Of a DNA stretch of 64,000 bases, positions 41,401-48,496 are shown piece after piece. Under the pieces are notes generated by a model, which ran no database searches, had not been told where the DNA came from, and saw only the letters and a program-made list of their open reading frames with translations. How positions within the stretch are numbered: position 1 is the stretch's first letter; every line of letters begins with the position of its first letter. The position numbers and the translations under genes were made by a program. Origin of the DNA: Inmirania thermothiophila (GTDB lineage Bacteria; Pseudomonadota; Gammaproteobacteria; DSM-100275); assembly GCF_003751635.1 (NCBI RefSeq), contig NZ_RJVI01000001.1:1094726-1158725 (forward strand). Reading direction: 5' to 3'.

Positions 41401-42381
41401 GCGCGCCTCGCCCGCCTCGCCGCCCGGGGGGTGCCGGTGCTGGTGATCGCGGCCTGGCAGAGCGCCGGCGCGGAGCTACCCCCGGGGGTCGCCGTGTTCC
41501 ACCATCCCTTCCGGCTCGAAGCGCTGCTGGCTCGGGCGGCGGTGCTGTGCGGCCTCCTCGAGGAGGAGGCGGCGGTGTCCTCGCTCACCCTCCGGCTCGC
41601 CGCGGCGCCACGCAGCATCGAGGAGGCCGAGCAGGCGGGTCGGCTGGTGCTCGTCGCCGAGGACAACGAGATCAACCAGAAGGTGATCGAGGAGCAGCTC
41701 GCCCAGCTGGGCTACCGTGCCGTGATCGCCTCGGACGGGCGGGAGGCGCTGGCGCGCCTTGCCGAGCATCGCTATGCCGCCGTGCTCACCGACGCCCACA
41801 TGCCGCACATGGACGGCTACGGCCTGACGCGCGCGATCCGCGCCTCCGAGGCCGACACCGGGAGGCGTGTCCCGATCCTGCTCCTGACCGCCGATGCCAC
41901 GCCGCAGGTGGCGGGGCGCTGCCGCGACGTGGGGGCCGACGACGTCCTGATCAAGCCCCTGGCCCTGTCGGAGCTGCGGCTGGCGCTGGAGCGCTGGGTC
42001 ACGCCCGCCCCACCGCCGGGCCGGTCAGCCCCCGCCGGGTCGGCGGAGGCGGCGGACTGGGATCCGGCGACGCTCGCGCGGGTGGTGGGCGACTCGCAGG
42101 CCCTGCAGGAGCGCATCGTCGCACGCTTCCTCGCGGATGCGCCCCAACAGGTGGAGGAGATCAGGCGTCTGGCCCGCGGGGGGGATGCCGCCGCGGCCGC
42201 GGCGGCCGCCCACAAGCTCAAGTCGGCCGCGCGCAGCATCGGCGGCCTGCGCCTCGGCGATCTGTGCGAGGCCGTCGAGCGGGCGGGGCGCGCGGGGGAC
42301 GGAGCGGAGCTGCGCCGGCTCGCGGACGAGCTCGAGCCCGCACTTGAACGGCTGGTGCGCAGGATCCGAGACCGGACATGA
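38482..42381 (+). CDS. Hybrid sensor histidine kinase with three PAS, pseudo-REC, REC and HPt domains
   Basis: Membrane kinase of 1299 residues, BarA/ArcB-like in layout. Two transmembrane helices (about 11-31 and 231-253) bracket a periplasmic sensor region. Three PAS-like domains (about 275-640), HisKA with H674 in MSHEIRTP, and HATPase with [15 protein letters not shown] and GGTGLGLAI follow. A first receiver-like domain (about 905-1035) has lost its acceptor Asp ([10 protein letters not shown]); the second has D1104 ([11 protein letters not shown]); the C-terminal HPt carries H1244 in [11 protein letters not shown] 38482 overlaps the preceding gene. The signal sensed is unknown. Confidence 0.92.
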
Positions 42382-43532
42382 ACGCAAGGCCGCCGCACGC
42401 CCTCGACCACGAGGTCCTGCTCCTTTTCAGCGACGACAAGGACATCGTCGAGCACGTGGCGCAGATGCTCGAGCCCGCCCACCGTCAGGCCCTGCGGCTG
42501 GGCCGTGCCGACGAGGTGGTGCAACTGTTCGGCGAGCTCGAGCCCGGCGTCCTCCTCTATGCCTTCAGCCGGCTCGAACTCGCCGAGCGTACCCACCTCG
42601 ACCTCTACCGCAACAGCGAGCGGGTCTTCGACGTGCTGCACGAGACGGTGGTCCTGTGCGAAGGGGGCGAGGTCCACGACGCCTGGGCGTTGTGCCGGCG
42701 GGGGATCTTCGACGACTACGTGGTGGTGCGCCCGCTGCACGACCCGCATCGCCTCGACATGGCCCTGCGCCATGCCCTGGCGCGGCTCGCGTACCGCCGC
42801 GGCAGCCCCTCGCAGGGGGAGCTGCGGCGGCTCGGCGAGGAGATCGCGGCCCTGCACCGGGGGTTGCGGGAGGCGCTGGGGCGGCGGGGGCGGCTGGACG
42901 AGAGGCAGGCGGCGCTGCTCGATGGTCTGCAGCGGCGCGTCCGCGAGGAAGGCGCGCGATTGCTGGAGGCGCTGCAGCGGGACGACCGGCCGACGGCGGA
43001 CGGGCTTCTGCGGCGCTTCGCCGAGGAGGCGCTGCCGCGCGAGGTGGCGCGGGTCTCGGCCGGCATCGGCGAGGCCGTGGCGAGCTGGAGCGGCACCCTG
43101 GAGGCGGAGCTCGAGGCGCACGCGCCGGCGGTGGCGCGGCTCGCCGAGGTGGCCAGCCGTGCGCGCCCGGCGGTGCTCCTGGTGGAGGATTCCGAGATGG
43201 ACGCGGAGGTGGTCACGGCTGTGCTGGAGGAGGCGGGCTGCCGGGTGATGCGCTGTTGGGACGGTGCCTCGGCGCTGTCCAGATTGGCCGAGGAGCCGGC
43301 GGACCTGGTCCTCCTGGACGAGGGCCTGCCGGACCTGTCCGGGCTCGATGTGCTGCGCCGGATCCGCGCGAGCGGGCGTCTGGCCGAGCTGCCCGTGGTC
43401 ATGCTCACGGGGCGCGCGGAAAAGGAGGTGGTCGAAGGGGCGATCGCCGCCGGCGCCTCGGACTTCATCCGCAAGCCGCCGGCACGTGATCTCCTCCTGA
43501 GCCGGCTGCAGGCGCTCCTCGGCCGGTCCTGA
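42378..43532 (+). CDS. Response regulator with C-terminal receiver and novel N-terminal region
   Basis: Protein of 384 residues. The C-terminal receiver (about 262-384) has the acidic pair in VEDSEMDAE, acceptor D314 in [13 protein letters not shown] in MLTGR and lysine in FIRKPPA. The N-terminal half (1-130) begins with another receiver-like fold ([15 protein letters not shown]...) without a clear acceptor, followed by a helical coiled segment (130-250). Receiver at the C terminus and no output domain suggest a phosphotransfer or scaffold role. ATG overlaps the kinase stop by four bases. I do not recognise the N-terminal family; it may resemble CheZ-like helical regulators. Confidence 0.8.
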
Positions 43533-43540
43533 CCGGCACG

Positions 43541-43568
43541 GCGGGCCCCGGGCCGGAACGGGGCCCGC
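43541..43568 (+). terminator. GC-rich hairpin after the signalling operon
   Basis: GCGGGCCCCG (43541-43550) and CGGGGCCCGC (43559-43568) form a perfect 10-bp stem with an 8-base loop, 8 bp after the stop. There is no T tract now or in the reconstructed pre-insertion sequence (GTTTG follows). The IS element is inserted at its 3' base. Confidence 0.5.
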
Positions 43569-43570
43569 GT
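43566..43570 (+). repeat. Target-site duplication, left copy
   Basis: CGCGT immediately left of the IS end; the identical CGCGT is found immediately right of the other end (44672-44676). Confidence 0.8.
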
Positions 43571-43596
43571 TGACCAGGTTCAGAGACATGTGAGAC
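43571..43596 (+). repeat. IS left terminal inverted repeat
   Basis: It begins TGACCAGGTTCAG and matches the reversed right end TGTCCTGGTTCAG at 11 of 13 positions. After a 1-base gap the match continues through ACAT and GAGAC. Confidence 0.85.
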
Positions 43597-43696
43597 GTTG
43601 AAGGCCGAAGAGCGGGGCCCTCATGCTGGGTGTAGGTGGAAGAACCTGGCAGAGGAGGACCCGGGATGAAGCTCTTCGGCCTTCAGGGGGAGATCC

Positions 43697-44662
43697 GTGC
43701 GCCACCGTCTTGGGGTGGTGGAGCGGTTCGAGTATCTGCGTCGGCGCGGGCTGAGCGCGGCCGAGGCGGCGGCGGTGCTGGGGGTGAGCCGCGCGACGGT
43801 GCATCGGTGGCGCAGGCGGCTGGCCGAGCGGGGCTTGCGCGGTCTTCGTCCGGGCTCACGTCGCCCCCGCAGGCTGCGACGAAAAGGCTGGGATCGGCAC
43901 CTGGTGGAGGCCGTCGAGCGTCTCCATGCAAGCTTTCCTGCCTGGGGCAAGGAGGAGCTGGTGGTGCTGCTGCGCACGCAGGGCTTTGCGGTCTCGGCCA
44001 GCACCGTGGGCAGGATCCTGGCCTGGCTCAGGCAGCGGGGACGGATCCCGGCAGCGCCCCTGGCGGGCGGTGGCGGGCGGCGCCGGGGCAGGCCCTGGCG
44101 CCGGCGCTGGGCACGGCGAAGCCGGACCCGCCTTCGTGGCAAGGCCCCCGGCGACGTGGTGCAGTTGGACACCCTGGAGCTGCGGCTTCTGCCCGGCGTG
44201 ACGGTGTATCAGTTCACCGCTTGGGACGCGGCCAGCCGCTGGAGCGTGGCCCAGGTGTATCACCGCCCCACCAGCCGCTGCGCCGCCTGGTTTCTCGAAC
44301 ACCTGCGCGCCCAGTGCCCGTTTCCCATCCGGGCGCTGCAGGTCGATGGCGGCAGCGAGTTTGCCGGCCGCTTCGAAGCGGCGTGCGAGGCGGCCGGCAT
44401 CCCGCTGTATGTGCTGCCGCCCCGAAGCCCCAAGCTCAACGGAGGGGTGGAACGCACCCAGGGGAGCTGGCGCTACGAGTTCTATGCCTGCTACCCCTTG
44501 CCCACCACCCTGGCCGAGCTTCGCCCGCTGGTGCAGTGGTGGCAGCACGTCTACAACCACCTGCGGCCCCACCAGGCCTTGCAGGGGCTCACCCCCGCCG
44601 AGTACCTTCGCCAACACACCCAGCACCCCGCCCCGCGCGTGGTCGTGTCTCCTATGTACTGA
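43697..44662 (+). CDS. IS481-family transposase
   Basis: DDE transposase/integrase of 321 residues. The N-terminal helix-turn-helix (LSAAEAAAVLGVSRATVHRW, about 19-38) is followed by a basic region and an rve-type catalytic core with D158 (VVQLDTLEL), D217 (LQVDGGSEF) and E252 (GGVERTQG); the last two are 35 apart, the DD(35)E spacing of the IS3/IS481 group. The end has the typical YNHLRPHQALQGLTPAEYL. The start is GTG 43697 after GGGGGAG. The single-frame gene excludes a two-frame IS3 arrangement. Confidence 0.93.
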   Translation: MRHRLGVVERFEYLRRRGLSAAEAAAVLGVSRATVHRWRRRLAERGLRGLRPGSRRPRRLRRKGWDRHLVEAVERLHASFPAWGKEELVVLLRTQGFAVSASTVGRILAWLRQRGRIPAAPLAGGGGRRRGRPWRRRWARRSRTRLRGKAPGDVVQLDTLELRLLPGVTVYQFTAWDAASRWSVAQVYHRPTSRCAAWFLEHLRAQCPFPIRALQVDGGSEFAGRFEAACEAAGIPLYVLPPRSPKLNGGVERTQGSWRYEFYACYPLPTTLAELRPLVQWWQHVYNHLRPHQALQGLTPAEYLRQHTQHPAPRVVVSPMY

Positions 44663-44671
44663 ACCAGGACA
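44647..44671 (-). repeat. IS right terminal inverted repeat
   Basis: Read on the minus strand it begins TGTCCTGGTTCAGTACAT, the counterpart of the left end. The transposase stop codon lies inside it. Confidence 0.85.
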
Positions 44672-44676
44672 CGCGT
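44672..44676 (+). repeat. Target-site duplication, right copy
   Basis: CGCGT directly after the right IS end, identical to 43566-43570 and directly abutting the -35 box TTGACA at 44677. Confidence 0.8.
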
Positions 44677-44706
44677 TTGACAGCCGCGATGCGGCGGGCG
44701 TAGATT
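44677..44706 (+). promoter_or_regulatory. Promoter of the ferredoxin oxidoreductase operon
   Basis: A perfect TTGACA (44677-44682), an 18-base spacer and TAGATT (44701-44706). The IS target duplication ends one base before the -35 box, so the promoter is intact but its upstream region has been replaced by IS sequence. Confidence 0.6.
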
Positions 44707-45040
44707 GCGCCGCGGCGGCGAACCCGCCGAAAAGGAGAGCGCGACGGCCGCCGGCCCCACAAGGGCGCAGGCCGGACGAGGAGGCACGGCAGCGATCCTG
44801 CCGTGGAGGAGTGGGCGATGCGCCACCACCCGCCCGCAGGGCCCGTCCCGGGCCCGAGCCAGCGACACGCGTCCCGGCCGAGGACGCGGCTCCCCCACGT
44901 GCCCGACGATCCGCGCCCGCGTTGCGCGCGCCCTGCGCCGACGCGGGCGGGCCGTGCCCTGCCCCGGCCCCGGCGGCGGTAGCAAGGCAACGGCGCGCCG
45001 GGTGATCCCCGGCGACGCGGGCAACGAGGAGGAGTCCGAC
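44707..45040 (+). other. Long structured 5' leader of the ferredoxin oxidoreductase gene
   Basis: About 330 bases between the promoter and the first large gene. It holds CCGGCC...GGCCGG, a perfect 8-bp hairpin CACGGCAG-CGATC-CTGCCGTG (44785-44805), a small frame with a good ribosome site (44818-44982), GGGCCC-GTCCC-GGGCCC inside it, and GCCCGCGT...ACGCGGGC near its end. I do not recognise a known riboswitch: no TPP (CTGAGA) or cobalamin box is seen. Attenuation or translational control is possible. Confidence 0.4.
44818..44982 (+). CDS. Possible 54-residue leader peptide
   Basis: ATG 44818 follows GGAGGA at normal spacing and directly follows a perfect hairpin. The peptide begins MRHHPPAGPVPG and is rich in Pro and Arg, which is also what random GC-rich sequence encodes, so coding status is unsure. 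It ends 58 bp before the main gene. Consecutive His codons and proline runs could stall ribosomes, and EF-P acts on proline runs; this is speculative. Confidence 0.25.
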   Translation: MRHHPPAGPVPGPSQRHASRPRTRLPHVPDDPRPRCARPAPTRAGRALPRPRRR

Positions 45041-48000
45041 ATGACCCTGGCCGCAGTGCGTGCGGACGACATCTACACGCTCGAATCCGGGCGCGTCTTC
45101 CTCTCCGGCATCGAGGCCCTGGTGCGGCTGCCCATCATGCAGCGGCGGCGCGACCGCGAGGCCGGTCTCCACACCGCCGGCTTCGTCTCCGGCTACCGCG
45201 GCTCGCCCCTGGGCGGGCTGGACCAGGCCCTGTGGCGGGCGCGCGAGCACCTCGAGCGCCACCACGTGCGCTTCCAGCCGGCGGTGAACGAGGATCTGGC
45301 CGCCACCGCCGTCTGGGGCACGCAGCAGGTGAACCTGTTCCCCGGGGCTCGCTACGACGGCGTCTTCGCCATGTGGTACGGCAAGGGGCCGGGGGTGGAC
45401 CGCAGCGGCGACGTCTTCAAGCACGCCAACGCCGCCGGCACCTCGCGCCACGGCGGGGTGCTGGTGATCGCCGGCGACGACCACGGCTGCAAGTCCTCCA
45501 CCCTGCCGCACCAGAGCGACTACGCCTTCATGGACGCCATGATTCCGGTGCTCAACCCGGCGGGGGTTCAGGAGATCCTGGACTACGGCCTCGTCGGCTG
45601 GGCCATGTCGCGCTACAGCGGCTGCTGGGTGGCGATGAAGACCATCGCCGAGACGGTGGATTCCTCGGCCACCGTGGACGTGGACCCGGGGCGCGTCCGG
45701 CTGGTGCTGCCCGAGGACTTCGAGCCGCCCCCGGAGGGGCTCAACATCCGCTGGCCCGACCCCCCGCTGGCGCAGGAGTTGCGCCTGCACCGCCACAAGC
45801 TCTACGCCGCCCTGGCCTTCGCCCGCGCCAACCGGCTCGACCGGGTGGTGATGGACAGCCCGCGCCCGCGCCTCGGCATCGTCACCACCGGCAAGTCCTA
45901 CCTGGACGTGCTGCAGGCGCTGGACGACCTCGGCATCGACGCGCGCCTTGCCGCCGAGATCGGGCTGCGGGTCTACAAGGTGGGCATGGTCTGGCCCCTG
46001 GAGCGCGAGGGGGTGCGCGCCTTCGCCCGCGGCCTCGAGGAGATCCTCGTGGTGGAGGAGAAGCGGGCGGTGATCGAGAACCAGCTCAAGGAGCAGCTCT
46101 ACCACTGGGACGCGGGCGAGCGGCCGCGGGTGATCGGCAAGTTCGACGAGGCCGGCCGCTGGATCCTGCCCTCGGCGGGGGAGCTCACACCGGCGCGCAT
46201 CGCCCGCGCCATCGCCGCCCGCATCCAGCGCTTCCACACCAGCGAGCGCATCCGCGAGCGGCTCGCCTTCCTCGAGGCCAAGGAGCGCGCGCTGGCCGGG
46301 CGCCCGGCGGTGCTGGAGCGCACCCCGCACTTCTGCTCCGGCTGCCCGCACAACACCTCCACCCGGGTGCCCGAGGGCAGCCGCGCCCTCGGCGGCATCG
46401 GCTGCCACTACATGGCCACCTGGATGGAGCGCGCCACCCACACCTTCACCCAGATGGGCGGCGAGGGGGCGACCTGGATCGGCCAGGCCCCCTTCACCGA
46501 GACCCGCCACGTCTTCCAGAACCTCGGCGACGGCACCTACTACCACTCGGGCCTGCTCGCCATCCGCGCCGCGGTCGCGGCCGGCGTCAACATCACCTAC
46601 AAGATCCTCTACAACGGCGCCGTGGCCATGACCGGCGGCCAGCCGGTGGACGGGCCGCTGACCGTGCCGGGCATCGCGCGACAGGTGTGCGAGGAGGGGG
46701 TGCAGCGCATCGCCGTCGTCAGCGAGGAGCCGGCCCGCTGGCGCGCCGCGCGCGACCTGCCCGAAGGCACCACCGTCCATCACCGCAGCGAGCTCGACGC
46801 CCTGCAGCGCGAGCTGCGGGAGACGCCCGGGGTGTCGGTGCTGATCTACGAGCAGACCTGCGCCGCCGAGAAGCGCCGCCGGCGCCGGCGCGGCGAGTAC
46901 CCCGATCCGCCGGTGCGGGTGTTCATCAACCCCGAGGTCTGCGACGGCTGCGGCGACTGCTCGGTGCAGTCCAACTGCCTCTCGGTGGTGCCGGTGGAGA
47001 CGCCCTTCGGGCGCAAGCGCGCCATCGACCAGTCGGCGTGCAACAAGGACTACACCTGCCTCGAGGGCTTCTGCCCCAGCTTCGTCACCGTGCACGGCGG
47101 GCGGCTGCGCCGCCGCGGCGGGGTGGAGGTGCCCTTCGAGGCCCTGCCGGAGCCGCGCCGTCCCGCCCTCGACCGGCCCTACAACATCGTCATCACCGGC
47201 ATCGGCGGCACCGGCGTGGTGACCATCGGCTACCTCTTAGGCATGGCCGCCCACCTGGAGGGCAAGGGCGCGACGGTCCTGGACATGACGGGCCTGGCGC
47301 AGAAGTACGGCGCGGTGGTGAGCCACGTGCGCATCGCCCGCGAGCCCTCCGAGATCCACGCGGTGCGCGTCGCCGCGGGCGGGGCCGACCTGCTGCTCGC
47401 GGCCGACCTCGTGGTGGCCTCGGGCTTCGAGGCCCTGGCCAAGCTCGCCGCGGGGCGCAGCCGCGCGGTGGTCAACACCTGGCGGCAGATGCCGGCGGCC
47501 TTCACCCGCGACCCCGATCTGCCGTTCCCGGACGCGGAGATGCTCGGGCGCATCCGCGAGGCCGTGGGCGGGGACGGGGCGCTGTGGGCCCTCGACGCCC
47601 ACCGCCTCGCCACCGCCCTGCTCGGCGACGCCATCGGCGCCAACCTCTTCCTGCTCGGCTTCGCCTACCAGAAGGGGCTGGTGCCGGTGTCGGAGGCGGC
47701 CATCCTGCGGGCGGTGGAGCTCAACGGCGTGGCGGTGGCGTTCAACCGCCAGGCCTTCCTCTGGGGGCGGCGCGCCGCCCACGACCTCGCCGCGGTGGAG
47801 CGCATCACCCGCCCCGCGCGCGAGGCGGACGCCGAGGAGGGGCTCGAGGCGCTGGTGGAGCGCCGCGCGCGGCACCTCGCGGCCTACCAGGACGAGGCCT
47901 ACGCGCGGCGCTACCGGGCGCTGGTGGCGCGGGTGCGCGAGGCCGAGCAGCGGGTCGTGCCGGGCTCGGAGGCGCTGACGCGGGCGGTGGCGCGCGGCTA

Positions 48001-48496
48001 TCACCGCCTGCTCGCGATCAAGGACGAGTACGAGGTGGCGCGCCTGCACACGGACCCGGCGTTGCGCGCCGCCCTGGAGGCGCAGTTCGAGGGCGACTAC
48101 CGCATCGTCCACCACTTCGCGCCGCCGCTGCTCGCGCGCCCCGACCCCCGCACCGGGCGGGCGCGCAAGCGCCGCTTCGGGCCCTGGGTGCGGCCGCTGC
48201 TGCGGGTCCTGGCGGCGATGCGCCGGCTGCGCGGCACCCCCTTCGATCCCTTCGGCCGCAGCGCCGAGCGGCGCATGGAGCGGGCCCTGATCGGCGAGTA
48301 CGAGGCCGTGGTCGGCGAGCTCGTCGAGGGGCTGCGCCCGGACAACCACGCCCTCGCGGTGGAGATCGCGGCGGGCGCCGAGCGCGTGCGCGGCTTCGGC
48401 CCCGTGAAGCGGGCCAACATCGAGCGCGTGCGCGCCGAGCGCGAACGGCTGCTTGCGCGGCTGCGCGGCGGGCGGGGGCTGGACGCGGCGGCCTGA
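45041..48496 (+). CDS. Indolepyruvate ferredoxin oxidoreductase-family protein (fused subunits)
   Basis: Thiamine-diphosphate, iron-sulfur 2-oxoacid oxidoreductase of 1151 residues that would convert a 2-oxoacid plus CoA to acyl-CoA and CO2. The IorA-like part occupies about 1-700, including [11 protein letters not shown] at the pyrimidine-domain start and CSGCPHN; cysteine groups [13 protein letters not shown] and [12 protein letters not shown] provide cluster ligands; the IorB-like gamma domain starts near 710 ([17 protein letters not shown]) and a family-specific C-terminal region follows. ATG 45041 has GAGGAGGAG upstream. Proximity to leucine dehydrogenase suggests branched-chain 2-oxoacids as substrates, although aryl-pyruvates are the named substrate of the family. 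Confidence 0.9.

Follow-up and report, generated by a model that had tools for sequence, protein, structure and literature searches.

The window analysed here is a 64,000-nt stretch of the Inmirania thermothiophila genome in which an IS481-like insertion sequence (IS) lies between a response-regulator protein gene and the promoter that precedes an indolepyruvate ferredoxin oxidoreductase family gene (Table 1). A first-pass annotation had described a clean insertion of an IS481-type element, flanked by a genuine target duplication of 5 bp, and this description holds: CGCGT is repeated perfectly on both sides, and the transposase ORF is intact, with no internal stop. The insertion had also been called recent, which may be so; the 35 other genomes sampled are related to the host at class level only and supply no relative with an empty site. 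The left terminus, TGACCAGGTTCAG, and the right terminus, TGTCCTGGTTCAG (reverse complement), are identical at 11 of the 13 terminal bases. The TG-starting inverted repeats (TGACCAGG/TGTCCTGG) and short duplication by which the IS481 family is recognized are both present, the duplication measuring 5 bp in the window, as is a DDE/rve core with an acidic triad. We infer that the acidic residues D158, D217 and E252, invariant in 7/7 aligned proteins, are the catalytic residues of the transposase.

Assignment of the transposase to a family is less straightforward. Its Pfam matches are to rve_3 (55.7 bits) and to rve (30.3 bits, under the rve cut-off of 32.6), and no match to LZ_Tnp_IS481 (PF13011) is found in it at E 0.001; the relative L126 shows a weak PF13011 match (23.7 against a cut-off of 22.2). 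By far the best NCBIfam model is NF033577 (transpos_IS481; 204.8 bits, E 1.9e-60), the IS3 model reaching 99.2 bits. NF033577 is an equivalog model with a curated cut-off of 224 bits, below which the window transposase falls, and the element is therefore named IS481-like rather than IS481; the relatives in two alphaproteobacterial metagenome-derived genomes introduced below (MAGs G036 and G038) miss this cut-off as well (0/3 genomes). The catalytic core also resembles retroviral integrases in sequence (best E 6.8e-8). Within its own 2.6-Mb genome, the window element is the sole full copy. A single 46-bp right-end remnant (91% identity) is found elsewhere, followed by GCGGC, TTGACA, 17 bp, AATAAT and a tRNA-Arg gene, with a promoter score of 17.5 on the scale described below. 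A third match to TGAACCNGGACA was rejected: it is apparently coding sequence, and the remainder of the element end is absent.

The promoter beside the right end, TTGACA-N18-TAGATT, is the only sigma70-like site between 43000 and 45200 in a consensus scan (1 found against a mean of 0.0 in 50 shuffles). Its score at offset 5 is 16.0, which places the element within the promoter-targeting clade proposed here. As had been stated earlier, the core promoter is spared and upstream sequence removed; the insertion keeps the -35 and -10 boxes, and all sequence upstream of about -40 is separated from the promoter. The oxidoreductase gene is presumably transcribed from this promoter. Between the predicted transcript start and that gene lie about 330 G+C-rich leader bases (44713-45041) without an Rfam family match, and at gathering scores no Rfam family is found anywhere in the window.

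On the other side of the element, a hairpin beyond the response-regulator gene had been taken for a terminator. It is indeed stable, lying within a 49-nt fold of -31.3 kcal/mol (z -2.5), and it overlaps the left duplication, its last three stem bases falling inside CGCGT, while the insertion leaves it whole. The terminator part of the claim is not borne out: no T-run is present, and the same consensus scan returned 0 terminator-like sites.

Table 1. Features around the insertion, in window coordinates
Feature	Position	Strand	Remark
Response-regulator protein gene	42378..43532	+	upstream of the element
Hairpin past the response-regulator gene	43541..43568	+	incidental neighbour, no T-run
Target duplication CGCGT (5 bp), left copy	43566..43570	.	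perfect match with right copy
IS481-like insertion sequence	43571..44671	+	1101 bp, bounded by perfect duplications
Left terminal inverted repeat	43571..43596	+	TGACCAGGTTCAG...GTGAGAC
Predicted RNA hairpin at left end	43597..43687	+	encloses Shine-Dalgarno region and upstream ATG (43666); z -4.4
Transposase	43697..44662	+	321 aa; HTH domains and rve/DDE core
Right terminal inverted repeat	44647..44671	-	end facing the target promoter
Target duplication CGCGT (5 bp), right copy	44672..44676	.	perfect match with left copy
-35 box TTGACA of target promoter	44677..44682	+	first base adjoins right duplication
-10 box TAGATT of target promoter	44701..44706	+	spacer 18
Indolepyruvate ferredoxin oxidoreductase family gene	45041..48496	+	downstream of the element

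Relatives of the transposase and their left ends

A transposase scan of 84,980 species genomes yielded 80 candidate stretches, 39 of which encode a relative. Most of these (35/39; L030-L064) reside in one alphaproteobacterial MAG (CATOSZ, hereafter G036), and the remainder comprise L065 in a Rhodospirillales MAG, L068 in another alphaproteobacterial MAG (G038) and two distant proteins (24-25%). The protein of L031 from G036 shares 50% identity with the window transposase. Six G036 copies measure 1056 bp and 28 measure 1118 bp, and L063 is truncated by the contig end. Matches to the transposase occur in 6/369 genomes of the class at E <= 1e-40 and in 2/398 genomes of the phylum at E <= 1e-50, the own genome included in both counts, and in 2/96 relatives of G036, with G036 itself included; the clade is thus patchy and rare. 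From viral contigs came one useful right end, L149, whose contig also carries L151, and a distant relative at 28%, L150. In a tree of 11 proteins, eight clade proteins (including L124 and L167) stand apart from the ISKpn28 and Nomurabacteria rows, a split with support of 89/95 that counts as an open fork under the rule of the tool.

The left ends of these elements share further features. Hairpins occupy the same place as the predicted left-end hairpin of the window in five relatives (L031, L065, L126, L119 and L073), the z-test having been applied to that of the window alone, and the stems differ in sequence between the six element types (GGGGAUCUCC/GGAGAUCCCC and similar). Lying immediately ahead of the upstream start codon, such a predicted structure would mask the Shine-Dalgarno site of transcripts that read through into the element. 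A conserved leader start, MKxFGL/MQVFGL (43666-43720 in the window), was seen by eye in the transposase frame of L031 and L065, both of which contain a palindromic segment. In the window it is out of the transposase frame, as it is in the six L034-type MAG copies of 1056 bp (62 bp shorter); a frameshift or the use of a different start is likely.

Target sites in G036

All G036 copies with both ends (34/34) are flanked by perfect 5-bp duplications, each copy by its own, and the right flanks of the 35 copies all differ. As the earlier description had implied, the repeat therefore belongs to the target and not to the element, and the insertions are independent. When these right flanks are lined up at their junction with the element, with positions numbered from the first base after the duplication, a -35 part emerges at +1 to +5 (T 33, T 25, G 33, A 20 and C 25, each of 35), together with a -10 part (T 19 at +24, A 27 at +25 and T 21 at +29, each of 35). 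A weaker signal is given by C at the last duplicated base (25/35), and little is seen at other positions. This logo is that of a sigma70-type promoter whose boxes are 17 bp apart, TTGAC occupying +1 to +5 and TAxxxT +24 to +29.

Promoter scores were obtained with a matrix of approximate E. coli frequencies that may miss weak promoters, and were set against a background of 400 kb of G036, which was used for every set and is less apt for other hosts. At offset 5, a score of at least 6 is attained by 24/35 G036 flanks, compared with 2205 of ~797,600 background strand-positions (0.28%), and the mean score is 8.2 at this offset against -9.0 over the remaining offsets 0 to 60. The same threshold is passed by at most 1/35 flanks at offsets other than 4, 5 and 6 (up to 60) and, on the left side, by an outward promoter at offset 5 in 0/34 G036 copies. 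The 11 right ends below 6 (L032, L035, L036, L038, L039, L040, L047, L048, L050, L054 and L057) all score above 0 (0.4 to 4.7). A control was provided by a different repeated G036 element, distantly similar to the IS481 model and with six distinct flanks: to its left and to its right, no offset between 0 and 60 has more than 1/6 flanks with a score of at least 6. Clear ends were not found in another group of three loci.

The sites were also placed relative to genes with our own simple gene caller. Although 89% of the MAG background is called coding, 26/35 G036 sites are called intergenic, and three further sites (L031, L044 and L049) sit right where the upstream gene ends; there we infer from the sequence that the stop of that gene is supplied by the TTGA of the -35 box. 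Such a distribution, with 29/35 sites intergenic or at gene ends, could arise if insertion were random and selection then kept the copies in harmless or activating positions. However, selection would hardly fix a base-exact position and orientation, and the offset scan contradicts this explanation, since offsets 4 and 6, a single base off, retain scores of at least 6 in just 4/35 and 3/35 flanks; it is accordingly regarded as extremely improbable.

Another alternative is that only a short TTGAC-like sequence, similar to the TGAC at the tip of the element itself, is recognized, with the -10 box hitchhiking because insertions survive mainly between genes. This would fit the presence of TTG at +1 in 23/35 G036 sites (background 0.95%) and in 11/13 sites of the second MAG, as well as the left tip TGAC of the window and MAG copies. 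The -10 box, however, is enriched beyond what such hitchhiking predicts. Its quality at 22 intergenic TTG sites is far better than at intergenic TTG positions in general (P = 5e-11), and 29 sites likewise surpass intergenic DNA that precedes a gene in the same direction (P = 7e-16). A -10 box also stands at the correct distance in 12 sites without TTG (P = 4e-9) and in six sites called inside genes (P = 3e-5). One of the latter, L051, is doubtful as an intragenic site, with a good forward gene beginning 72 bp downstream; the five others, compared with all background, give P = 1.5e-4. Moreover, element tips in the Thermaceae are TGAAC and TGTAAT, yet the flanks on a plasmid of Allomeiothermus (Meiothermus) silvanus (Deinococcota; L119, L136, L137 and L138/L139) carry TTG at +1 in 3/4 and a -10 box in 4/4. 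Recognition of TTGAC alone is largely contradicted by these data and is considered very improbable.

The two boxes are spaced as in real promoters, with 16, 17 and 18 bp between them in 5, 35 and 8 of 48 sites, respectively. L052 combines a poor -35 box (TTCCAA) with a perfect TATAAT; because -35 and -10 quality are not correlated (rho -0.08), compensation between boxes is not evident as a trend and is seen only in single sites such as this one. tRNA genes directly follow 3/35 sites (Ser, Glu and Asp), ARAGORN finding no others in these loci. Further tRNA genes stand next to L131 (Thr) and L149 (Ser), on the downstream side, as well as after the remnant in the I. thermothiophila genome. Among 48 candidate downstream proteins, 20 were scanned in Pfam, and 17/20 match a family at E <= 1e-10, including ribosomal L28 and S6, glycyl-tRNA synthetase alpha, carbamoyl-phosphate synthase small chain and various oxidoreductases. 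By eye, L126 lies upstream of a gene with an acpP-like start and L128 upstream of a cold-shock-like gene.

The first-pass annotation had further raised the question whether terminator hairpins are preferred targets, an idea that agrees with the stable hairpin overlapping the left duplication in the window. Nevertheless, the left flanks of the other copies contain no sequence signal outside the duplicated base, and their structure is no greater than that of control promoter-like sites (28 vs 33, P = 0.21). The T-run is absent in the window, and 20 of the 26 intergenic sites have an upstream gene that points away from the element, an arrangement in which a terminator would not be expected. Hairpin targeting thus retains almost no credibility. 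The position of TTGACA right beside the duplication is no coincidence but the usual case, the promoter itself being the target.

Target sites in other hosts

In the second MAG (G038), where most copies lie at contig ends and the count rests on right ends, 11/13 distinct right ends score at least 6, the best offset again being 5; L153 and L154 fall below. A mixed set drawn from Gammaproteobacteria, Thermaceae and others, the window included, contains 18 right ends, of which 11 score at least 6 and 7 fall below. Multiple loci of one copy were counted once, and L164 was excluded, its flank duplicating that of L163. Matching duplications at both ends were recognized by eye in the window, L065, L126, L119, L137 and the recombined pair L139/L138. 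Five of these six copies score at least 6, the exception being L139/L138, whose right end (L138) has a poor -35 and a good -10 box and scores below 6. L128, L129, L130, L131, L136 and L149, in which the left duplication is uncheckable or non-matching, all score at least 6. The other copies below 6 (L127, L132, L134, L148, L124 and L167) are mostly damaged, at a contig edge or terminally different: L127 and L132 are edge or chimeric copies, L134 has a decayed left end, and L148, represented by its right end, shows TTGCGA one base early, while L124 from Octadecabacter and L167 from genome G781 group with the clade but differ in their terminal sequences and do not fit the pattern. With 11/35, 2/13 and 7/18 right ends below 6 in the three sets, either recognition is not strict or the matrix misses weak promoters.

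Two of these loci have additional peculiarities. The outer ends of L138, L139 and L140 (NC_014213.1 330041-333401) share the duplication TATGC, and another IS-like ORF lies between them; one copy seems to have inserted into another, with subsequent recombination. L124 (Octadecabacter arcticus plasmid, 1408-2388) is a sister element with TATACA-type ends upstream of gvpA, and its TTGACG box stands 10 bp instead of 5 bp from what seems to be the end of the element; no clear duplication is seen.

In both alphaproteobacterial MAGs the insertions hold a base-exact position and a single orientation and use the -35 and -10 boxes jointly, and cases matching this pattern occur in other Proteobacteria and in Thermaceae.

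Candidate targeting mechanism and known systems

Taken at the level of sequence, the clade targets core promoters in one orientation, with its right end towards the promoter. The best explanation, which is held to be fairly probable, is that this IS481-like clade is aimed at sigma70-type core promoters by docking on promoter-bound holoenzyme. A complex of transposase and IS ends would dock on holoenzyme already sitting on the promoter, and strand transfer would then put the 5-bp duplicated target directly upstream of the -35 hexamer, with the right end (behind the transposase stop codon) oriented towards the promoter. Calculated from the spacing, the duplicated bases cover approximately promoter positions -40 to -36. 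This is where sigma region 4 has its upstream edge, close to class II activator and alpha-CTD sites. The core promoters of, for example, tRNA, ribosomal-protein and aminoacyl-tRNA synthetase genes would be spared, and host cost should be small because the core promoter is retained.

The main rival proposes that the transposase complex itself reads promoter DNA, both -35 and -10, without RNA polymerase. A strong bipartite signal with near-fixed spacing (17 bp in 35/48) is compatible with such reading, and an asymmetric target read by one element end would explain the orientation. However, the signal is one-sided and reaches 29 bp from the cut, spacings of 16-18 bp are tolerated, sites with one good box occur, and transposases of only about 45-50% identity have this type of target in common. 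Direct DNA reading is therefore a serious but rather unlikely alternative. Guidance of the transposase complex by bound RNA polymerase holoenzyme, instead of by DNA reading of its own, is favoured as the reasonably probable course, since the one-sided 29-bp reach, the 16-18 bp tolerance and the acceptance of poor boxes resemble the way in which the polymerase reads promoters. No additional domain that could contact RNA polymerase or sigma was identified in the transposase.

Known bacterial target choices include short sequences, attTn7, hairpins and guide RNAs. Base-exact finding of core promoters would, if true, constitute a new principle of target choice and could explain how an IS attains dozens of copies with little harm. 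Insertion sites may furthermore serve as natural genome-wide promoter marks in uncultured bacteria, given that the sites alone rebuild the -35/-10 logo, and the system could yield a tool that places cargo just upstream of promoters. No description of an IS targeting -35 boxes was found in searches of an open-access collection, which leaves subscription papers and preprints mostly outside. The relevant passages of PMC3281130, PMC9208149, PMC9330008, PMC10892881 and PMC10045372 describe none, and the main text of a Thermus IS survey (PMC6352166) contains neither the word IS481 nor the word promoter.

The window element shares with the IS481 family a single transposase ORF with HTH and rve/DDE regions, TG-starting imperfect inverted repeats and a short duplication. 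IS481 itself prefers CTAG targets, whereas the target here is a promoter. According to passages of PMC10045372, target duplications in the family range from 2 to 15 bp and measure 6 bp in most IS481 elements, in contrast to 5 bp in this clade. IS5, IS256 and others, which form fusion promoters or insert near promoters (passages of PMC9330008), likewise affect the neighbouring gene; there the element supplies a -35 box or regulatory DNA. In the present clade, by contrast, the native core promoter is targeted as a whole and remains beyond the end of the element.

A functional likeness may be drawn to the yeast elements Ty3 and Ty1, which also insert at a fixed distance from initiation sites, do little harm downstream and have tRNA genes among their targets. 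These elements are tethered to RNA polymerase III factors, and Ty3 lands beside RNA polymerase III initiation sites; retroviral integrases likewise rely on host tethers. It appears somewhat more than an even prospect that the transcription initiation complex (RNA polymerase-sigma70) acts as an IS landing pad, a form of Ty3-like safe-site targeting extending from Proteobacteria to Thermaceae. Unlike Ty3 and Ty1, which are eukaryotic retroelements, the agent here would be a bacterial DNA element at sigma70-type promoters.
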